This document shows positions 25,980 through 35,924 of a DNA stretch of 41,237 nucleotides, one piece after another. Made by a program: the position numbers and the translations under genes. The DNA comes from Tabrizicola sp. Its GTDB lineage: Bacteria; Pseudomonadota; Alphaproteobacteria; Rhodobacterales; Rhodobacteraceae. The stretch lies in assembly GCA_025458105.1 (NCBI GenBank), contig JALOTD010000009.1, positions 1-41,237 on the forward strand, in the 5' to 3' direction. The stretch's first letter is position 1. Each line of letters begins with the position of its first letter. The notes below the pieces were generated by a model. That model had not been told where the DNA came from. It saw nothing but the letters and a program-made list of their open reading frames with translations, and made no database searches.

Positions 25980-26062
25980 GCAGTGATTGACTGTCAGAGC
26001 GCCGGGGTCGGGAGAGCCTCGGAGTGATCTTGCGGCCTTGCCGCATTCAGGGAGGAAACCAG

Positions 26063-27007
26063 ATGAAACACGCCATTCTTGGCGCGGCCCTTGCCGTCGC
26101 CTTTGCCGTTCCCGCGTTCGCGCAGGATTACACGATCATGGCTCCGGCCAATCCCGGCGGCGGCTGGGACGCTACGGCCCGTTCGATGCAGGAGGTTCTG
26201 CAGGCCGAAGGCATCGCGCCCTCGGTCGAGGTGATCAACGTTCCGGGTGCGGGCGGCACGGTGGGCCTGGCCCAGTTCGTGGCCGATAGCGCGGGCGATC
26301 CGACCAAGCTGATCGTCGGTGGCTATGTGATGGTCGGTGCGATCCTGACGAATGCTTCGTCGGTGTCGCTGAAGGACGTGACCCCGATTGCGCGACTAAC
26401 CGGGGACACTCAGGCGATCGTCGTTCCGGCGGCGTCCGACATTCAAACGCTGGCCGATCTGGTCGAGAAGCTGAAGGCCGATCCCGGCGCTGTCAGCTGG
26501 GCCGGTGGCTCTGCGGGCGGTACCGACCACATCACCGTGGGCCTTCTGGCCAAGGCTGCGGGCGTCGATCCGACCAAGATCAACTATGTCGCCTTCTCGG
26601 GCGGTGGTGAAGCTATGGCCGCAATCCTGGGTAATCAGGTGACAGCCGGGGTGTCGTCGGTGGGCGAGTTCTCGGAACAGGTGAAGGCCGGAACCATGCG
26701 TCTTCTGGCTGTGTCGTCGGCGGAACGCCTGCCGGGCATCGATGCTCCGACCATCAAGGAAGCAGGCTTTGACGTTGTGGTGCAGAACTGGCGGATGATT
26801 GCCGCCGCGCCGGGCCTGACGGCAGAGCAGGTGGCCAAGATCAGCGCCGATATCGAGAAGCTGAACGCCTCGGCTGGCTGGACCTCGATGCTGGAGACGA
26901 AGGGCTGGGCGAATACCTATCTGGCGGGCGATGCCTTTGCCGCCCAGCTGGACGCGGACATTGCCGCGACAGAGGCCATTCTGCGCGACATCGGCCTGGT
27001 GCAATGA
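26063..27007 (+). CDS. tctC: Tripartite tricarboxylate transporter substrate-binding protein TctC
   Basis: A 314-residue exported binding protein of the TTT (Bug) family. A strong GGAGGA site precedes the ATG at 26063. The signal peptide (residues 1-20) ends AFA-QDY. The family pocket motifs follow: [20 protein letters not shown], and [15 protein letters not shown]. It captures a carboxylate in the periplasm for the TctAB membrane complex. Which carboxylate (citrate, tricarballylate, terephthalate-like and others are known for the family) cannot be read. It overlaps tctB by 4 bases. Confidence 0.93.
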
Positions 27008-27489
27008 GCCAGCAACCTGTGGAACGTCGCCCCAACGGGGCGGCGTTCGTCATCGCCGCAGGGCTGGCAGTCATGGCAGGCTTGCTCTTGTGGGATGCGT
27101 CAGGGTTGAAACAGGACGGCGGCTATGCCGGGGTTGGCCCTGCGGATGTGCCGCGACTGGTGGCCTATGGTCTTCTTGTCCTAGCGGCGCTGACTGTGGT
27201 TTCGGGTTTGCGGGGCGATCTGCCGCGCGCCCCCCGGCAGGCGCCCGCTCCGATCCTGTGGATTTTGGGTGGGCTTGGTCTGCAACTGACGCTCTTGCAC
27301 GTCGTGGGCTTCGTGATGTCGGGCGCGCTTCTGTTCGGAATGACGGCGCGGGGCCTCGGTCGCAAACCGCTCTGGCTGACCGTTACGGTCGGCTTTGGCG
27401 TGTCGCTTATCATCTATGGCGTCTTCGACCGGCTTCTGCGGCTGAACCTGCCGGGCGGGCCGCTTGAGATGCTGATCTTCGGAGGCTGA
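27004..27489 (+). CDS. tctB: Tripartite tricarboxylate transporter small membrane subunit TctB
   Basis: A 161-residue protein with four predicted transmembrane helices (about residues 13-30, 48-66, 80-105, 118-138). It shows the TctB-type pattern [14 protein letters not shown] and the C-terminal [20 protein letters not shown]. It is the accessory subunit of the secondary, ion-driven transporter. It lies between tctC and tctA, 4 bases from tctA. Confidence 0.93.
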
Positions 27490-27493
27490 GGCC

Positions 27494-29008
27494 ATGGACA
27501 GCTTTGGACTTCTGATGCAGGGCCTGCAGGCGGCGCTGGACCCGATGATCCTCCTCTATGCGCTGATTGGCGTGACGCTGGGCACGGCGGTCGGGGTTCT
27601 GCCCGGCATCGGCCCGGCGCTGACGGTCGCGCTGCTTCTGCCGGTGACTTACGGGTTGGACCCGGCCGGGTCGCTGATCATGTTCGCGGGCATCTATTAT
27701 GGCGGGATGTATGGCGGGTCGACAACCTCGATCCTTCTGAACACGCCAGGGGAAAGTGCGTCCATCGTCACGGCCATCGAGGGGAACCGGATGGCGCGGT
27801 CGGGCCGCGCGGGTCCGGCGCTGGCGACTGCGGCAATCGGCAGCTTTGTCGCGGGGCTGATCGCGACGCTGCTTCTGGCCTTTCTGGCGCCTCAGGTGGT
27901 GAAGCTGGCCCTGACCCTTGGCCCGCGCGAATACTTTGCGCTGATGGTGCTGGCCTTCGTGACCGTCTCGGCCACCTTTGGCGACAGCGCGCTGCGCGGG
28001 CTGACGTCGCTGTTTATCGGGCTTGCGCTAGCTTGCGTCGGGATCGACAGCCTAACCGGGGCCGAGCGTCTGGCCTTCGACGTGCCACAGCTGAAGGATG
28101 GGATCGAGACGACAACACTGGCGGTCGCGCTGTTTGCCCTGGGCGAGGCGTTTGCCGTGGCCGGAATGCTGCGCCCGGAGGAGGGGATGCACAAGATCAC
28201 CGGGCGCGTGCGCATGACAACACAGGATTGGGCGCGGTCCTGGAAGTCCTGGCTGCGCGGCACATTCATCGGCTTTCCCATCGGGTCCATGCCAGCGGGC
28301 GGGGCGGATGTGGCCTCGTTCCTGTCCTACGCCGCCGAGAAGAAGCTGACCAAGCACCCCGAAGAATTCGGCAATGGCGCAATTGAAGGTGTTGCAGGGC
28401 CTGAGGCTGCGAACAACGCAGCGGCGGCGGGAACTCTGGTCCCACTCTTGACGCTGGGCCTGCCAACCACGGCCACGGCGGCCATAATGCTGGCGGGATT
28501 CCAGCAGTTCGGGTTGCAACCGGGGCCCCTGTTGTTCGTGACGAACGCCGAACTGGTCTGGGCGCTGATCGCCAGCCTTCTGATCGCCAACGTCATGCTT
28601 GTGGTCTTGAACCTGCCGCTGATCGGGCTGTGGATCCGGCTGCTGACGATACCCCGGCCCTGGCTTTATGCGGGGATCCTTCTGTTTGCCACGCTGGGAA
28701 CGATCGGGGTCAACCCGTCGCCGGTAGAACTGGGCATGCTGATCCTGTTCGGGCTCATGGGCTACGGCATGCGGCTTTACGGCTACCCCGTAGCGCCGGT
28801 GGTGGTGGGTCTGATCCTGGGCCCGATGGCCGAACAGCAGTTGCGCCGGGCGCTGGCGATTGCGCAGGGCGACTGGACGACACTGGTCTCGACACCCGTT
28901 TCGGCCACGCTCTTGGCGATTTCGGCCCTCTTCCTGGTCCTGCCGATCCTTATGCGGCTGCGGGGGCGCGGGGGTGTGCTCTCGCAGGTCGCGGGTGACG
29001 CGGACTGA
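27494..29008 (+). CDS. tctA: Tripartite tricarboxylate transporter large permease TctA
   Basis: A 504-residue permease with about 10-12 transmembrane helices. The two conserved TctA loops are present: [20 protein letters not shown] near residues 35-55, and [20 protein letters not shown] near 78-98. The second-half copy is [20 protein letters not shown] followed by [20 protein letters not shown]. It forms the transport pathway together with TctB. Standard length for the family. Its stop lies 9 bases from the stop of the convergent PLP-enzyme gene. Confidence 0.96.
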
Positions 29009-29017
29009 GGGTTCGGG

Positions 29018-30142
29018 TCACCCGGCGAGGATGCCCCTCAGGGACGCGGCCAGATGATCGCAGCCGTCTTCGGTTGTGACAAAACCGGGAGAGAGGCGGA
29101 GTGTCTGGCCCCGATGATCGGTCGTTACGCCAGTGTCGCGCATGCGCGCAACCACAGTCGCTGCGGGCAGTTTCTCGGGCAGGTGCAGCATGACCGAGCC
29201 ACCTCGTTCCCCCTCGGCCCGGGGGGTAGCAAGGGTCAGGCCCAGATCGTCGGCCATCGCAAACAGCAAGGCGGTGAGCTTGCGGTTGTGGGCCAGCAGC
29301 GCGGCATGGTCCTGACCGGCATGCCAATCCAGCGCGGGCAGCGAGGCCAGTGCCGACATGCAGGACGGCGTGCCGGAATCAAAGCGCCGCACATCGGGGG
29401 CATAGGAAAAGCGCGTGATGTCCCAATTGAACGGGTTGTCCTGGCTGAACCATCCACGCAGCCGGGGCTGGCATTCGGCAGTCAGTGCCGGATCGACGTA
29501 CAGCGCCCCGGCGCCCGGCGTGCCGCACATCCATTTGAGCGAAGTGGACAGCGCGAAATCAACGCGCGGTTCGGTCACGTCAAACGGCAACAAACCTGCA
29601 GCTTGGGTAACGTCGACCCCGATCAGGCTGCCCATGGCCCGCCCGTGCGCAACCAGACGGTCCAGATTCACCCGGTGCGAGCTGGTCGACGAGACCCAGG
29701 TCAAGAGCGCAAGGCCCACATCCGGCCCCCAGGCGGCGGCGAAGTCCTCGTCCTCGACCCAGCTTGCGCCCTGCCGCAAAGGCACGGTCTGCAGGGTGAA
29801 ACCATGGGTTTGCGCCAGGCCCGACAGAAGGAAATGGTTCGACGGAAAGCAATCGGCCGCGACCAGAACGGTTCGGCCTTGCAAGTAGCGCTCCGGAAGC
29901 GCCTCGATCAGCATGTGCAGGCCTTGGGTTACGCTGTCACAAGTGGTGACCGAGCCTTCGGGCGCGTTCAAGATGCCACGCCAACGGTCGATATAGCGCT
30001 GCCGCTGCGGCAGGACCCAGCCCCATTGCCCATCATCAGGCCGCCCCCAGACTTGCGCGAACCGGGACAGATGGTCGGACAGGTCGCGCTCTTTCCCGGG
30101 GTACATGCCGATGGAGTGGTACAGGAAATAGGCATCGGACAT
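29018..30142 (-). CDS. Kynureninase-like PLP enzyme (class V aminotransferase fold)
   Basis: A 374-residue cytoplasmic fold-type I PLP enzyme. The Schiff-base lysine is K203 (STSLKWMCGTPGAG). The ring-pairing aspartate is D177 (IGVDVTQAAG). The C-terminal RGWFSQDNPFNWD, then RRFDSGTPSCMSALA parallels the kynureninase RGWFGH...RRFxxGTP region. The Gly-His of that loop is Ser-Gln here, so the substrate may differ. No other tryptophan-degradation gene is near. I start at ATG 30142 (MSDAYFLYHS) rather than the in-frame 30178 codon, which adds 12 unconserved residues. The family is confident; the reaction (kynurenine cleavage versus desulfurase or lyase on another amino acid) is open. Confidence 0.75.
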   Translation of the reverse strand: MSDAYFLYHSIGMYPGKERDLSDHLSRFAQVWGRPDDGQWGWVLPQRQRYIDRWRGILNAPEGSVTTCDSVTQGLHMLIEALPERYLQGRTVLVAADCFPSNHFLLSGLAQTHGFTLQTVPLRQGASWVEDEDFAAAWGPDVGLALLTWVSSTSSHRVNLDRLVAHGRAMGSLIGVDVTQAAGLLPFDVTEPRVDFALSTSLKWMCGTPGAGALYVDPALTAECQPRLRGWFSQDNPFNWDITRFSYAPDVRRFDSGTPSCMSALASLPALDWHAGQDHAALLAHNRKLTALLFAMADDLGLTLATPRAEGERGGSVMLHLPEKLPAATVVARMRDTGVTTDHRGQTLRLSPGFVTTEDGCDHLAASLRGILAG

Positions 30143-30321
30143 GGGTGCGTTCCCGGTTGGGTTGGATAGAGTTACCAAGGGTCATAGCGGTTTCGCTCGG
30201 GTGGATGAAGCCTTGGCTGGCAGGCACGACGCTTGCGATTCTGCCGTTCTACTCTAGGCTGCAAGGATGAGCGGAGATTTGGGTGCGCAAAAGGCGCTGG
30301 GTCAGTCAGCAAGGGGCCGGG

Positions 30322-31326
30322 ATGGCGAGCAGACCTGATCCGGACCGTCTTGCCGACCGCGCGTTGGCGGCCTTGACGGGTGTGGCGCTTGGCGATGCGA
30401 TGGGCATGCCCGCGCAGACTCTGGATCGGGATGTGATTCAGGCAGCTTATGGCCGCATCACAGGGCTGATCGCGCCGATGCCGGGCCACCCTGTGTCGCA
30501 TGGCTTGAAGGCCGGTCAGGTGACCGATGATACGGAACAGACAATCCTTTTGGCTCGGCGACTTCTGTCGGATGCGCCCGACTTCGATGCTGCTGCTTGG
30601 GGCCGGGATCTGATGGATTGGGAGGCGGGAGTGGCAACTCGGGGTCTGCATGACCTCTTGGGACCGTCAACCAAAGCTGCGCTGGCAGCATTGGCGCGCG
30701 GCGTTACGCCTCAGGAGGCCGGACGCAACGGCGCGACCAACGGTGCAGCGATGCGTATCGTGCCTGTCGGGATTGCCACTTTGCCTGACCCCGGCCAGAT
30801 CGCGTCTCGGGTGTTGCAGGTCTCACAGGTCACCCACGGCCGTGGCGAGGCGCTGGCCGCCGCCTCTGCCGTGGCGATGGTGGTAAGTCAGGGGCTGGAA
30901 GGGGCGTCCTTCGAAGCGACGGTTGATCTGGCGCTGGTGGCTGCGCGCAAGGCTTCTCCCAACCGCGACCCGGCGGCGCATGCAGCGATGGCGGACCGTA
31001 TTGCACTGGCCCTCGACATCGCACCGCAGGGCGAAGAGGCGCTGGCCCGAAAGATCGGGACGTCGGTTCAAAGCCTGCAGTCCGTCGCCTGTGCCTTCGG
31101 GATTGTTCGGCTGGCCAACGGCGACCCGTGGCAGTCCACATTGATTGCTGCGAACATCGGGGATGATACCGACACGATCGGAGCGATTGCTTGCGCGATG
31201 GCGGCAGCCTGCACGGGTATGTCTGGCCTGCCCAGCGGACCCCTGGCCAAGCTGCATGCTGCGAATGCACTGGAGTTGCAGCCGCTTGCCCGAGATCTCT
31301 TGCGCTTGAGGGGTGGCATACGATGA
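30322..31326 (+). CDS. ADP-ribosylglycohydrolase-fold protein
   Basis: A 334-residue all-helical protein of the ARH/DraG fold, which normally hydrolyses N- or O-glycosidic bonds to ribose using two magnesium ions. The metal-site motifs are present: GDAMGMP (24-30), TDDTE (68-72) and GDDTDTIGAI (280-289). GATNGAAMRIVPVGI (about 136-150) is also typical. I chose ATG 30322, preceded by AAGGGG; a GTG at 30283 is in frame. It overlaps the PfkB kinase gene (ATGA) and heads an operon with an amine-type ABC importer. No ADP-ribosyltransferase or nitrogenase gene is near, so a small-molecule substrate with a ribosyl group is more likely than a protein. Confidence 0.85.
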   Translation: MASRPDPDRLADRALAALTGVALGDAMGMPAQTLDRDVIQAAYGRITGLIAPMPGHPVSHGLKAGQVTDDTEQTILLARRLLSDAPDFDAAAWGRDLMDWEAGVATRGLHDLLGPSTKAALAALARGVTPQEAGRNGATNGAAMRIVPVGIATLPDPGQIASRVLQVSQVTHGRGEALAAASAVAMVVSQGLEGASFEATVDLALVAARKASPNRDPAAHAAMADRIALALDIAPQGEEALARKIGTSVQSLQSVACAFGIVRLANGDPWQSTLIAANIGDDTDTIGAIACAMAAACTGMSGLPSGPLAKLHAANALELQPLARDLLRLRGGIR

Positions 31327-32243
31327 CCCGCCTCGTGCAGATTTCCGGTGTCATTATGGACCATGTCTACCGAATTCGCGCTATTCCGGCGCCGGGAACC
31401 GAGGCTGAGGTGCGGTCGGCATTCCTGACACCGGGTGGCGGGTTCAACGCGATGGTCGCAGCGCAGCGCATGGGGCTGGAGGTGGTCTATGGCGGCACGC
31501 TCGGCTCTGGTCCCTTTGCCGATCGGATTGCGCAAGCCTTGGCCGATTCGGGAATAGAGGCGTTGCGGCCCCGGCTGCGTGGGCTGGATCAGGGGGTGTG
31601 TACGGTCCTGATCGACTATACCGGTGAACGCAGCTTTATCGCCAGCGAGGGTGCGGACGGACTGGTGACGGATGCTGACCTTGCAGGCCTGCCGCTGCGG
31701 ACGGATGATTGGCTCCTGCTGTCCGGTTATGCGCTGTTGTACAAGGGCAGCCGCGATGCCCTGACCCGCTGGCTGACCAAGCGACCCGGTCGTCTGGTCT
31801 TTGACCCCTGCCCGCAGATCGGCGCAATCCCGGCCGAGTCGCGGGCGGCAGCGCTACAGGCTGCACATTGGATCAGTGCAAACCGGGCAGAGGCTGCTAC
31901 TCTGACCGGACAAAGCGACCCGGCGCGGGCCGCTCGGCAACTAGCGGATCGCCCTGGGGGGGCGGTTGTGCGTGATGGAGCCCAGGGCGCCTGGCTTGCA
32001 ACGCCGGGAGCGCAGGCGGTTCATCTGCCAGCTTTTCCAGTCCGAGTGGTTGATACAAACGGTGCCGGCGACACGCATGTCGGAGCCTTCATCGCGGCGC
32101 TTGCGGCAGGGCATCCACCCGTGGAATCCTGCCGTCTGGCGAACATCGCCGCGGCCTTGTCTATTACCCGTGCGGGTCCGGCGACGGCCCCGAATTTGTC
32201 CGACGTGCTGGCCCATGCCGCACCATCTCTGAAGGAGAGCTGA
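31323..32243 (+). CDS. PfkB/ribokinase-family sugar kinase
   Basis: A 306-residue cytoplasmic kinase. It has the N-terminal PfkB signature TPGGGFNAMVAAQRMGLEVV (about residues 37-56). The C-terminal signature DTNGAGDTHVGAF includes catalytic D250 and the anion hole GAGD (247-250). It would phosphorylate ribose, a nucleoside or a related sugar with ATP. Placement directly after the ARH-fold gene (ATGA overlap) and before an ABC importer suggests it phosphorylates the sugar released by the glycohydrolase, or the imported compound. The substrate is not identifiable from sequence. Confidence 0.88.
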   Translation: MTRLVQISGVIMDHVYRIRAIPAPGTEAEVRSAFLTPGGGFNAMVAAQRMGLEVVYGGTLGSGPFADRIAQALADSGIEALRPRLRGLDQGVCTVLIDYTGERSFIASEGADGLVTDADLAGLPLRTDDWLLLSGYALLYKGSRDALTRWLTKRPGRLVFDPCPQIGAIPAESRAAALQAAHWISANRAEAATLTGQSDPARAARQLADRPGGAVVRDGAQGAWLATPGAQAVHLPAFPVRVVDTNGAGDTHVGAFIAALAAGHPPVESCRLANIAAALSITRAGPATAPNLSDVLAHAAPSLKES

Positions 32244-33275
32244 ATGAAGACCATCCTGACCCCAGCCGCGCTGGCTCTGATGACGCCTATGGCCCTGGCT
32301 GATGAGATCCGCGTGCTGAACTGGCAGGGCTACGGCACCGATCTTGACTGGGCCATAGCCGCCTTTACCGAGGCGACCGGGCATACGGTCGTGCATGAAT
32401 ACTTCACCTCGGAACAAGAGATGCTGACGAAGCTCCGCACGAATCCGGGGGCTTATGATGTGGTCCTGATTAACTCGGCGTTCACGCCGCAGGCGCAGGC
32501 CGAGGGGCTGATCACTCCGATAGACCCGATGAAAGTTCCGAATCTGGCCGATGTCGATCCGGCTCTGGTGGCAAATCAGGACCTGAACCCCGGTGGAGCC
32601 CTGTATGGCGTTCCCTGGACCTGGGGCCTGACGTCTTTTGCCGTAAACACGGGTGATTTCCCGGAAGCACCAACCTCGCTGTCGGTGTTCTGGGACCCGG
32701 CCTTCAAGGGGCGTGTCTCGATCCGTGACGACGCGCTGGAGGCGGTGCAGTTCGCAGCGCTGGCCACCGGGCAGAACATCAACGACATTACTGACATGGA
32801 TGCGGTCAAGGCCAAGCTGACCGAACTGATGCCCCAAATTGCGACGTTCTGGGGAGCTGAGACCGACTGGAACCAGAACATGGCCGCCGGTCAGTTTGCA
32901 GTGGCGACCTACTGGTCTGGCTCTGCGGCGCGGTCAATTTCGGAAGGGCTGCCTGTGGCCTTTGTGGTGCCGGAAGAGGGCGCGATCGGCTGGCTGGACG
33001 GGTTGTCGATTCCAGCAAGCTCGACCAAGCAGGATGCGGCGCATGCCTTCATCGACTGGATGATCGATCCGGACTTCTACGTGAAGTGGGAGGCGGAAGG
33101 GGCCCCGGCGACGTCGAACACTGCGGCCGCTGCCGCGCTGCCCGAGGAGAGCTTCAACCGCAAGGTCCTTGGCGACCCTGCGGTCGTGGCGCGTGTCCAG
33201 TTCATGCGCCCCGTGGCCGATGAAACGCGCGAGGCCTATCTGGCGCTTTGGCAGGAGCTGAAGGCCGGCCAGTGA
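32244..33275 (+). CDS. ABC importer substrate-binding protein, polyamine type (PotD/PotF-like)
   Basis: A 343-residue periplasmic protein. The signal peptide (1-19) ends PMALA-DEI. The mature start IRVLNWQGYGTDLD, with LRTNPGAYDVVLINSAF and VPWTWGLTSFAVNT, is typical of spermidine/putrescine-binding proteins. EDEI-type acidic pocket residues of PotD could not be placed with confidence, and the family also binds other amines, opines and thiamine-like compounds. A GGAG site lies just before the ATG, which directly follows the kinase stop. The stop overlaps the first permease (GTGA). Confidence 0.88.
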   Translation: MKTILTPAALALMTPMALADEIRVLNWQGYGTDLDWAIAAFTEATGHTVVHEYFTSEQEMLTKLRTNPGAYDVVLINSAFTPQAQAEGLITPIDPMKVPNLADVDPALVANQDLNPGGALYGVPWTWGLTSFAVNTGDFPEAPTSLSVFWDPAFKGRVSIRDDALEAVQFAALATGQNINDITDMDAVKAKLTELMPQIATFWGAETDWNQNMAAGQFAVATYWSGSAARSISEGLPVAFVVPEEGAIGWLDGLSIPASSTKQDAAHAFIDWMIDPDFYVKWEAEGAPATSNTAAAAALPEESFNRKVLGDPAVVARVQFMRPVADETREAYLALWQELKAGQ

Positions 33276-34123
33276 CGCGCGCCGAACGCATCCGGGCGCT
33301 GGGTCTTCTGGCGCCCGCCTATCTGTGGCTGACGGTGGCGGTGTTTCTGCCGCTGTCGGCTATGGCCTTCTTCAGCCTCTTGACCGAAGTCCCTTTCGGT
33401 GAACGCGAATGGTCGTTCACAATTGCAAACTATACCGAGGTTTTCGGCAACCCGGTCTATGCGACCCTGTTGTGGAAGTCGCTGAAACTGGGGTTCTGGG
33501 TCACCTTCTGGTGCCTTGTTCTTGGGTTTCCCTGCGCCTGGATTCTGGCGCGGATGCTCAAGGGCCGGTCGCGCGAGGTGCTGTTCCTGCTGGTCATCCT
33601 GCCCTTCTGGTCCAATGCGCTGGTCCGCATATTCTCCTGGGCCATCGTCCTGCGCGGCAATGGGGTGCTGGACCGTGCAGTGAATGCCGTCTTGCCCTGG
33701 GACGTGAACATCAACCTGATGTTCAGCGAACCCGCGATCATAATCGGCCTTGTCCATTCCTACCTGCCTTACGTCATCCTGACGACCTACCTCTCCCTGC
33801 AAGCCATTGACGAGACGTTGATCGAGGCCGCCCGGTCTTTGGGCGCCCGCTGGCCGCGCATCCTGTGGCGGCTGGTCCTGCCGCTTGCCCTGCCGGGCCT
33901 GATCGCAGGCGCGGTGCTGGTCTTTGTCCCCGTCGTCGGGTCCTTCATGGAGCCGCGCCTCTTGGGAGGACGCTTCGGCACGACCTACGGCACGCTGATC
34001 GAGGATCAGTTCGTCGCCGTCTTCAACTGGCCCCTTGGCGCGGCCCTGTCCTTCATCCTGTTGGCCGTCGTTCTGGTCATCCTGGCCGCCGCCAGCCCCG
34101 CCCTGCGAAAGGCTGCGACATGA
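33272..34123 (+). CDS. ABC importer permease, PotB-like
   Basis: A 283-residue inner-membrane permease with about six transmembrane helices. The EAA loop is ETLIEAARSLGARWPRILWR followed by LVLPLALPGL (about residues 185-220), which contacts the ATPase. Start GTG 33272 overlaps the binding-protein stop; an in-frame ATG at 33248 would lie inside the preceding gene. It pairs with the next gene as a heterodimer. It overlaps that gene by 4 bases (ATGA). Confidence 0.92.
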   Translation: MTRAERIRALGLLAPAYLWLTVAVFLPLSAMAFFSLLTEVPFGEREWSFTIANYTEVFGNPVYATLLWKSLKLGFWVTFWCLVLGFPCAWILARMLKGRSREVLFLLVILPFWSNALVRIFSWAIVLRGNGVLDRAVNAVLPWDVNINLMFSEPAIIIGLVHSYLPYVILTTYLSLQAIDETLIEAARSLGARWPRILWRLVLPLALPGLIAGAVLVFVPVVGSFMEPRLLGGRFGTTYGTLIEDQFVAVFNWPLGAALSFILLAVVLVILAAASPALRKAAT

Positions 34124-34890
34124 TCGTGGTCGCGCGCGCCTATCTGGGGCTGATCCTTGTCTTCCTCTACGCCCCCATCATCGTCATGGGGGTGATGAGC
34201 CTGAACGCTTCCGAGTTCTACGCGCTACCCTTCGACTTCTCGACAGAGTGGTATGAACGCCTGTTCGCAAACGAAGAAGTACTCGCTGCCTCATGGCGCA
34301 GCGTCTGGATCGCGCTGGTCGTGGCTACCGTCGCCACCACGCTCGGCACGATGGCCTCGCTGGCGCTCTGGCGGCACGACTTCCCCGGCAAGCGGATTCT
34401 TCAGGCGCTCCTCTTCCCACCCATTGCGGTGCCCTGGCTGATCATCGGAACGGCGATGCTGGTTTTCTTCTTCGGCATCGGCCTGGGGCGCGGCACGCCG
34501 GCGGTGGTCCTGGGCCATGTCGCCCTGGCCCTGCCATATGTCATCATCACTGTCACCGCCAGGATGCAAAGCTTTGACCGCGCGCTGGACGAGGCCGCCC
34601 GCTCCCTCGGCGCCCGGTCGTGGACAGTGGCGCGCAAGGTGATCCTGCCCTATGCATCGCCGGGTATCATCGCCGGGTGGCTTTTCGCCTTTGCCGTGAG
34701 CTTCGATCAGTTCGTCGTCAGCTACTTCCTGGCCGAACCGGGCGACAGTACCTTGCCCGTCCTGATCTACACCGCGATCCGCAAGGGGTTCACCCCTGAG
34801 ATCAATGCGATAGCGACCATCATCATCGCGGTATCAATGACCCTGATGATCGTCGCCGCCCGCTTTGCCCGGTTCGGAGGCACCAGATGA
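34120..34890 (+). CDS. ABC importer permease, PotC-like
   Basis: A 256-residue permease with about six transmembrane helices. The N-terminus (AYLGLILVFLYAPIIVMGVM) is typical of PotC. The EAA loop is RALDEAARSLGARSWTVARK followed by VILPYASPGII (about residues 155-187). ATG 34120 overlaps the first permease stop. The longer in-frame reading from 33865 lies wholly within the upstream permease gene and is discarded. It overlaps the ATPase gene by 4 bases. Confidence 0.92.
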   Translation: MIVVARAYLGLILVFLYAPIIVMGVMSLNASEFYALPFDFSTEWYERLFANEEVLAASWRSVWIALVVATVATTLGTMASLALWRHDFPGKRILQALLFPPIAVPWLIIGTAMLVFFFGIGLGRGTPAVVLGHVALALPYVIITVTARMQSFDRALDEAARSLGARSWTVARKVILPYASPGIIAGWLFAFAVSFDQFVVSYFLAEPGDSTLPVLIYTAIRKGFTPEINAIATIIIAVSMTLMIVAARFARFGGTR

Positions 34891-35924
34891 CCGAGGTTCG
34901 CGTCGAGGGGCTGACAAAGGCCTATGGCCCGGCCAAAGCGCTGGACGAGGTGACGCTGACGTTTCCGGACGGCGGGTTCTTCGGGCTTCTGGGCCCGTCG
35001 GGGTCGGGCAAGACCACGCTTCTGCGGGCGATTGCGGGGTTCGTGACGCCGGACACGGGCCGCATTTGGCTGGGCGACCAGGCGGTGGAGCGGGTACCGG
35101 TCGAAGACCGCGAAATCGGCATGGTCTTCCAGTCCTACGCGCTGTTCCCCAACATGACGGTCGCAGAGAACGTGGCCTTCGGTCTGGAGGTCCGCCGCAT
35201 CCCGGGCCCCGACCGCACCCGTCGCGTGGTCGAGGCGCTGGATCTGGTGCAGCTGGGCGGCTACGGCGGCCGCAAGCCCTCGGAGCTTTCGGGCGGGCAG
35301 CGGCAGCGGGTCGCCATGGCGCGGGCCATCGTCACGCGGCCGCGCGTCCTCCTTCTGGATGAGCCGCTGTCGGCGCTGGACCGGGCGCTGCGGGTGGACA
35401 TGCAGATCGAACTCAAGCGCATCCAGCGCGAGGTCGGGATCACCACGATCTTCGTGACCCACGACCAGGAAGAGGCGCTGACCCTCTCTGACCGCATCGG
35501 CATATTGCGCGACGGGCGGCTGGTGCGCGAAGGCACCCCCCGCGCGGTCTATGACGACCCGCAGGACGCCTTCACCGCCCGCTTCCTGGGTGAGGCGAAC
35601 GTGCTGACCGGCCTGCCCGAAGCCGGCGGCCTGCGGCTGGCGGACGGCACGCTGCTGCCCGGGGTCACCACCCCTGCCATAGCCCTGCGGCCTGAGGCTT
35701 TGGCCTTTGCCGTCCCCCCGCCCGATACGCCCCACCGTCTGCAGGCACGGCTCGCGCAGCGCATCTTCTCGGGCGCCACGGGCACGCTGGTGCTGGACTG
35801 GCAGGGTCAGCGACTGAAGCTGACGGCATCCGAGCGCGACCTTCTGGACCTCCCGGCCGAAGGAAGCCCCCTTTGGCTGCATTGGCCCGCCGCCGCTGCG
35901 CTTGCACTTCGTGACGCGGGATAG
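34887..35924 (+). CDS. ABC importer ATPase, PotA-like
   Basis: A 345-residue cytoplasmic ATPase. Walker A is GPSGSGKT (36-43), the Q-loop is in MVFQSYALFPNM, the signature is ELSGGQRQR, Walker B with its catalytic Glu is LLLDEPLSALD, and the switch His is in FVTHDQEEAL. A C-terminal TOBE-like regulatory domain (about 240-345) follows, as in PotA. It completes the importer encoded by the three preceding genes. The next gene starts 65 bases downstream behind its own ribosome site, so this is the probable end of the tightly coupled unit. Confidence 0.94.
   Translation: MTEVRVEGLTKAYGPAKALDEVTLTFPDGGFFGLLGPSGSGKTTLLRAIAGFVTPDTGRIWLGDQAVERVPVEDREIGMVFQSYALFPNMTVAENVAFGLEVRRIPGPDRTRRVVEALDLVQLGGYGGRKPSELSGGQRQRVAMARAIVTRPRVLLLDEPLSALDRALRVDMQIELKRIQREVGITTIFVTHDQEEALTLSDRIGILRDGRLVREGTPRAVYDDPQDAFTARFLGEANVLTGLPEAGGLRLADGTLLPGVTTPAIALRPEALAFAVPPPDTPHRLQARLAQRIFSGATGTLVLDWQGQRLKLTASERDLLDLPAEGSPLWLHWPAAAALALRDAG

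Follow-up and report, generated by a model that had tools for sequence, protein, structure and literature searches.

The window analysed here is a stretch of 41,237 nucleotides from Tabrizicola sp. (assembly GCA_025458105.1, contig JALOTD010000009.1), and our subject is an operon of six genes at positions 30322–35924 that encodes an ARH-fold hydrolase, a PfkB-family kinase and a complete importer resembling PotD, PotB, PotC and PotA (hereafter PotDBCA). The locus contains the following features.

30322..31326, forward strand: ARH-fold hydrolase, 334 amino acids, by sequence reading and Pfam; YegU-like (34% identity), with motifs TDDT and GDDTD
31323..32243, forward strand: PfkB/ribokinase-superfamily kinase, 306 amino acids; YegV-like (29% identity), with motifs GG-GFN, SGYAL and DTNGAGD
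32244..33275, forward strand: PotD-like periplasmic binding protein, 343 amino acids, with a signal peptide recognized by eye
33272..34123, forward strand: PotB-like permease with a GTG start, by Pfam and NCBIfam
34120..34890, forward strand: PotC-like permease, by Pfam and NCBIfam
34887..35924, forward strand: PotA-like ATPase with a TOBE_2 domain, by Pfam and NCBIfam
30179..30321, no strand: intergenic region upstream of the operon, presumed from its position to hold the promoter

The kinase ATG (31323) lies in an ATGA overlap with the end of the ARH gene, and the PotD ATG (32244) directly follows the kinase stop codon. The PotB GTG (33272) lies in a GTGA overlap, and ATGA overlaps join PotB to PotC (ATG at 34120) and PotC to PotA (ATG at 34887). 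All of these junctions, four overlaps and one abutment, were read on the sequence, and the tight coupling described in a first-pass annotation of this DNA is confirmed. The gene composition given there was also borne out by Pfam, with matches to ADP_ribosyl_GH (197.5 bits), PfkB (147.8 bits) and SBP_bac_8 (115.2 bits), to BPD_transp_1 in both permeases, and to ABC_tran and TOBE_2 in the ATPase. The best NCBIfam equivalog matches scored 149 bits against a cut-off of 582 for PotD, 201 against 348 for PotB, 238 against 326 for PotC, 335 against 482 for PotA, 117.5 against 299.65 for ribokinase, and 99.8 against 337.05 for DraG (TIGR02662). Since all six proteins fall under the equivalog cut-offs, terms such as "amine-type" and "ribose kinase" hold as family-level labels only, and the specific names spermidine/putrescine importer, ribokinase and DraG are, by these scores, not earned.

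The hydrolase and the kinase form a constant pair. Profiles of both enzymes were run against 398 genomes of the phylum, and the best five candidates per genome were scored at limits of our own choice (E 1e-50 or better for ARH and E 1e-55 or better for PfkB). The ARH subfamily was found in 26 genomes and the PfkB subfamily in 30. All 26 genomes with the ARH, which represent 14 genera with the window included, also have the PfkB kinase, and the two matches lie 3–1676 bp apart; the gap exceeds 1.5 kb in six cases, each with an NCS1 transporter gene inside. The four PfkB matches without an ARH are the lowest-scoring ones, all below 197 bits. In addition, the two enzymes share one uninterrupted open reading frame (ORF) in Actinomyces sp. 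B33 (L048, 8944–11106), Schaalia vaccimaxillae (L059, 8992–11025) and an Actinomycetes metagenome-assembled genome (MAG; L061, 8887–10962). Fusion and constant adjacency make a shared pathway hard to avoid, and these results support a functional coupling of the pair. A class-level protein search (E 1e-30) returned only the window's own genome among 385; the profile search, which used other samples and other queries, did find class members, and the 385-genome result is thus no measure of rarity.

The importer, by comparison across loci, is exchangeable. ARH loci were collected by a pattern-seeded search (80 of 84 kept), from plasmid and E. coli records, and from genome stretches. Copies of the window's own locus, short copies of three loci and one duplicate were dropped, as were two loci without a qualifying ARH (L134 and L156), which left 123 distinct ARH loci including the window; close relatives are over-represented in this sample (many are Streptomyces or belong to one alphaproteobacterial family), and counts from it are not population rates. 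The counts come from six-frame profile searches, used because gene calling was poor in low-G+C loci, with profiles built from the same loci and one best label per ORF. A PfkB match of at least 200 bits lies within 4.5 kb of the ARH in 104 of the 123 loci, and four further loci have PfkB in a shared ORF (L046, L048, L059 and L061). An importer stands beside the ARH in 97 loci, namely PotDBCA in 34, NCS1 in 45, and YegT, the transporter of the E. coli yegTUV operon, in 18. No locus (0/123) has two kinds, and the 26 loci counted as lacking an importer are those with none of these three. The first-pass annotation had proposed a genome-neighbourhood search as a check. The pair does have an importer beside it in most loci, yet this is PotDBCA in only 34 of the 123, the other two classes being exchangeable with it.

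A phylogeny of 104 ARHs groups the YegT loci in one clade on a long branch, and the distribution of PotDBCA needs three changes, at least two of which are forced by well-supported branches. The PotDBCA loci of Halomonadaceae, for example, are sister to NCS1 loci that include Paraburkholderia and Caballeronia plasmids (support 100/99). The swapping of unrelated importers around the same enzyme pair suggests that they serve one substrate class. Judging from representatives, which were assigned to Nuc_H_symport (YegT) and Transp_cyt_pur/NCS1 (L012 and L051), two of the three importer classes appear to belong to nucleoside or nucleobase families; a comparison of NCS1 with solved structures gave no match at E 0.01.

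A GntR-family regulator was found within 4.5 kb of the ARH in 27 of 34 PotDBCA loci, 31 of 45 NCS1 loci and all 18 YegT loci (76 of 97 in total). The relative L007 has a gene for a GntR/UTRA regulator upstream of the operon, and the window is without it: no significant GntR remnant was detected there, and the best match to the L007 regulator in the window's own genome reached 43.9 bits at 28% identity. The regulator is common without being universal, and we treat it as accessory. Clustering of 1,781 called neighbouring genes, with the 45 most frequent clusters viewed, revealed no further conserved partner among these clusters; the ones that are not part of the module occurred only in close relatives, looked like large general families (such as SDR, ABC, MFS and LysR, named by eye) or came from a few scattered loci.

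The hydrolase retains the metal site of its fold. The TDDTE and GDDTD motifs noticed in the first-pass annotation are both present, and T68, D69, D70, T71, D282 and D284 do not vary across 38 aligned ARHs; we take the TDD and DxD residues to be dinuclear-metal ligands. The AlphaFold model (mean predicted local distance difference test score, pLDDT, 95.0) has MJ1187, DraG and ARH3 as its nearest Foldseek neighbours, with 18–27% identity among the structure hits and template-modelling (TM) scores of 0.81/0.89 to 1t5j and 0.73/0.84 to 2woc. The neighbours include ARH3 structures with alpha-NAD+ (7arw) and ADP-ribosyl-arginine (6hh4), indicating that the fold accepts N-ribosides. To our knowledge, all characterized ARH-fold enzymes act on ribosyl bonds. 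The ARH of Streptomyces violaceusniger NBRC 13459 (L072, 9001–9947) is split over two frames by a frameshift or a sequencing error.

The kinase differs from ribokinase at the sugar site. Its model (mean pLDDT 95.6) has ribokinase 1rkd as the nearest solved fold in Foldseek (TM 0.81, 25% identity), and the PfkB fold and the GAGD catalytic motif were both found. The GGKGAN motif of ribokinase corresponds to GG-GFN in the window kinase, one residue shorter, and QLE corresponds to SGYA. Some relatives and YegV retain the length of the GGKGAN region, with the lysine present in none of those listed; the Glu column is variable, and no module-type member has Glu there. Asp13 and Asn42 are almost invariant among the relatives. 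Presumably, the free sugar is bound in ribokinase by Lys and Glu, and the hydroxyls that it shares with nucleosides by Asp and Asn. With these roles, the loss of Lys and Glu and the retention of Asp and Asn would make a riboside the likelier substrate of the kinase, in which case the substrate of the hydrolase would be a riboside already phosphorylated at the 5' position, as it is in ADP-ribose. From these residues we lean slightly towards kinase first over hydrolase first as the order of reactions. The first-pass annotation had placed hydrolysis before phosphorylation, with free ribose as the substrate of the kinase, which is unsupported as stated because the ribokinase Lys and Glu are missing.

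Clues to the substrate were obtained from distant ARHs, which have 28–43% identity and none of the three importers. Inosine-uridine (IU) nucleoside hydrolases occur in 8 of 16 distant loci versus 1 of 107 others, a count made after some loci had been seen and with six of the eight positive loci from Anaerolineales. In Anaerolineales, the ARH stands among up to four IU nucleoside hydrolases in one row. IU hydrolases are in a row with SIS-domain and PfkB genes in L080 and with adenine deaminase in L077, and in L076 (Yoonia) the ARH gene comes after those for a Bmp/PnrA-like binding protein and the associated ABC importer. As for YegT, isothermal titration calorimetry gave nothing significant with uridine, adenosine, cytidine or guanosine in one paper (PMC11979927), and gemcitabine, xanthosine, uridine and cytidine were not transported according to another (PMC11241209); the substrate is thus probably not one of the compounds tested. 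At a distant spirochaete locus (L078, 3150–13228), a CUT2-type importer, a corrinoid-protein-like ORF (identified by eye), an MttB-family methyltransferase, the ARH, a URO-D-type protein, PfkB and BtpA follow one another in a row. This single case is compatible with a substrate with a methylated quaternary nitrogen, possibly with demethylation of a quaternary amine. Creatine riboside and guanidine riboside, also considered as substrates, found no usable support in literature searches, some of them too broad to be informative, and were rejected.

We consider the chances slightly better than even that the operon serves to scavenge a non-canonical N-riboside that resembles a nucleoside and probably has a cationic or amine group. 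PotDBCA would import the N-riboside, and PfkB and the metal-dependent ARH would convert it to a free base or amine plus a phosphorylated pentose. In the kinase-first order, the riboside would be 5'-phosphorylated and then cleaved to ribose 5-phosphate, as presumably happens to pseudouridine with PsuK and PsuG; alternatively, the hydrolase may act first and the kinase second. The general idea of import, cleavage and phosphorylation came from the first-pass annotation and is supported more strongly than its author could know, since the pair is coupled, an importer usually accompanies it and the context is nucleoside-like; the order of steps and the free sugar as kinase substrate, as stated there, are not supported. 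A broader proposal, which we hold only tentatively, is a widespread and unrecognized salvage of cationic non-canonical N-ribosides, in which the ARH would be a nucleosidase acting on the PfkB-phosphorylated riboside and the three importers would feed one route; ligands could be, for example, 7-methylguanosine, 1-methyladenosine or a pyridine nucleoside.

Several observations weigh against the N-riboside module. The structure search with the kinase places free-sugar ribokinases at the top. The IU-hydrolase contexts are confined to the distant ARHs except for one locus, and in L066 and L076 the IU hydrolase is 5–6 kb away on the other strand. PsuT, named for pseudouridine, was likewise negative in the transport assay (PMC11241209), and the YegT negatives could mean either that YegT is a non-nucleoside transporter or that the assay missed transport. 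Rhodobacter sp. YIM 73028 (L006, 8983–10381) has an ARH at the syntenic place without a kinase or importer, and the 0.4 kb from this ARH to the next gene contains no significant remnant. The literature search, which covered few subscription papers and preprints, turned up neither a substrate for the ARH-PfkB pair nor data on its activity or expression, and no pathway of ARH, PfkB and an importer beyond the work on yegTUV. One study of that operon links its repressor GgaR to ADP-glucose and glycogen (PMC10819704).

What a plain riboside chiefly fails to account for is an MGH1-like (GH63-like) glycosidase near the ARH in 12 of the 34 PotDBCA loci. An isochorismatase-family hydrolase is also found near the ARH, in 4 of 34 PotDBCA and 13 of 45 NCS1 loci and in none of the 18 YegT loci; both enzymes were assigned to their families on the basis of representatives. 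These enzymes raise the possibility that the substrate is a non-riboside glycoside (glucosyl or another N- or O-linked compound) dismantled stepwise by the GH63-like enzyme, the isochorismatase-like hydrolase, the ARH and the kinase, a scheme that would cover ADP-glucose or glycogen-related compounds such as those proposed for yegTUV. The weakening of GgaR-DNA binding by ADP-glucose (PMC10819704) and the absence of a ribokinase signature in the kinase are consistent with it. The glycosidase is near none of the 45 NCS1 and 18 YegT loci, indicating that the core reaction can do without it. Nucleoside-type importers and the ribosyl bonds cleaved by the ARH-fold enzymes that we know of also argue against a non-riboside, and we regard this explanation as rather unlikely. 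Neither accessory hydrolase is beside the window operon, and a search of the own genome with the isochorismatase-like protein of L134 gave one weak partial match.

The binding protein bears on a second alternative, in which PotDBCA takes up ordinary polyamines, the two enzymes act on a different compound and the operon is a loose nutrient cluster. The closest solved binding proteins are PotD and PotF. In E. coli PotD numbering, the window protein keeps W34, Y37, D168, E171, W229, W255 and D257, and has replaced T35, S83, Y85, Y293 and Q327, so that the full spermidine-contact set is not present. We aligned the 21 linked PotDs gathered by then from the 34 PotDBCA loci. Trp34, Tyr37, Asp168, Trp229, Trp255 and Asp257 are unchanged in all 21, and the retention of D168, W255 and D257 would suit a polyamine. 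In contrast, the Ser83 column is Asn throughout, Tyr293 is Ala or Pro in all 21, the Tyr85 column is never aromatic (the residue after it often is), 16 of the proteins have Met in place of Gln327, and 12 retain Glu171. We read the pocket as aromatic and suited to one charged group rather than to a diamine. Furthermore, PotDBCA is swapped around the same pair with NCS1 and YegT, neither of which bears the name of a polyamine family. Among 198 genomes of the window's family, 7 have a PotD at E 1e-40 or better; in six of these, counting the window's, identity is at least 58% and the PotD gene is linked to one for an ARH-fold protein. The linked ARH is truncated by a contig end in genome G162 (L133) and is part of a phosphatase fusion in genome G014 (L134, described below). 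The seventh (31% identity) has no ARH within the 19 kb read (L156). The polyamine explanation is therefore improbable.

Two loci with unusual arrangements around PotD were also seen. In a MAG (L046, 9921–12116), PfkB and PotD are read in a single frame without an intervening stop codon, although a genuine fusion of the two would be unexpected for a PotD with what looks like an export signal. In genome G014 (L134, 11104–12672), a DSP/PTP-type phosphatase is fused to an ADP-ribosylglycohydrolase domain and is divergent from a cluster of PotDBCA, isochorismatase and glycosidase genes; a module-type PfkB was not found in the 19.5 kb read there.

A pyridine nucleoside (nicotinate or nicotinamide riboside) appears less probable still as the substrate. 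In plasmids of Pantoea dispersa (L092) and Pantoea sp. At-9b (L095), a cluster resembling that for aerobic nicotinate breakdown directly precedes YegT-ARH-PfkB-GntR and encodes 2,5-dihydroxypyridine dioxygenase, a flavin (FAD) monooxygenase, an alpha/beta hydrolase, an Asp/Glu racemase, an isochorismatase-type amidase and an MFS transporter. The binding of alpha-NAD+ by the ARH fold (7arw) fits such a substrate as well. The nicotinate genes are missing there in the three other Pantoea plasmids read (L096, L097 and L098), and we rejected a general nicotinate link that holds for two of five plasmids read, out of 15 matching Pantoea records. Among solved structures, the isochorismatase-like partner is most closely related to a nicotinamidase, but the partner lacks the D-x-H positions, which we take to be the nicotinamidase metal-binding site; its assignment as a nicotinamidase was therefore also rejected.

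Finally, a protein de-ADP-ribosylase of the DraG/ARH1 type, placed by a sugar kinase and an importer only incidentally, would agree with the fold, the metal residues (which match DraG and ARH3) and the best NCBIfam match, but is very improbable given the 26/26 pairing with PfkB, the three fusions, the frequent small-molecule importer and the DraG score far below the 337-bit cut-off. In the window's own genome (165 contigs, 90% complete), which gave a single ARH match, a search for DraT, the one ADP-ribosyltransferase family sought, was empty, but its control was silent too and absence is not proved by it.

Upstream of the operon, on the reverse strand and divergent from it, lies a pyridoxal phosphate enzyme (29018–30178) of the aminotransferase class V/kynureninase-like type, far under the equivalog cut-offs; our gene caller placed its start at 30142 instead of 30178, and L007 has the same neighbour. 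Further upstream is a tripartite tricarboxylate transporter of the TctC-TctB-TctA type (26024–29008; TctA by Pfam, the others by eye). Paracoccus albus (L087) also has a transporter of this type close to the module, and clustering indicates the same for Halomonas (L039); such transporters are common, and chance is possible.

Unlike yegTUV, the PotDBCA variant links the enzyme pair to a soluble binding protein, whose ligand could reveal the substrate of the PotDBCA, NCS1 and YegT versions together. The N-riboside salvage reading, if true, would give a function to yegTUV, an orphan operon with a solved transporter structure (YegT, 8zoj) and a known repressor. It also bears on whether some annotated ADP-ribosylglycohydrolases are small-molecule nucleosidases.

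Among known systems, ribokinase (RbsK, 1rkd) shares its fold with the window kinase, which is without the ribose-site Lys and Glu. DraG, MJ1187 and ARH1/ARH3 share their fold and metal motifs with the window ARH, which is only 18–27% identical to them and is linked to an importer and a kinase. PotABCD and PotFGHI resemble the window importer in the complete PotD-B-C-A set and the conserved core of the PotD pocket, and differ in that all window subunits score under the equivalog cut-offs and several spermidine-contact positions are replaced. The psuK-psuG system for pseudouridine breakdown also pairs a PfkB kinase with a glycosidase on an unusual nucleoside; there the kinase acts first, and PsuG, whose fold is unrelated to ARH, cleaves a C-glycosidic bond. 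The first-pass annotation knew of no named pathway of this composition. E. coli yegTUV-GgaR does have the same pair, and a description of the PotDBCA or NCS1 version was indeed not found in the literature searched; the kinship with yegTUV-GgaR, the GntR regulator linked in most relatives and the two accessory hydrolases had been missed. According to the GgaR study (PMC10819704), the genes of yegTUV all lack a clear function; a link to ADP-glucose is proposed there. Profiles of the window families match YegU at 333 bits and YegV at 228 bits, and in both operons an ARH stands beside a PfkB kinase and a solute importer. The importer YegT belongs to the nucleoside-proton symporter (NHS) family, whereas that of the window is PotDBCA, and the GntR/UTRA regulator YegW/GgaR lies downstream of yegTUV on the other strand, whereas the window has no linked regulator. 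With the ARH-PfkB-importer core present in both, the window operon appears to be a transporter-exchanged version of yegTUV.

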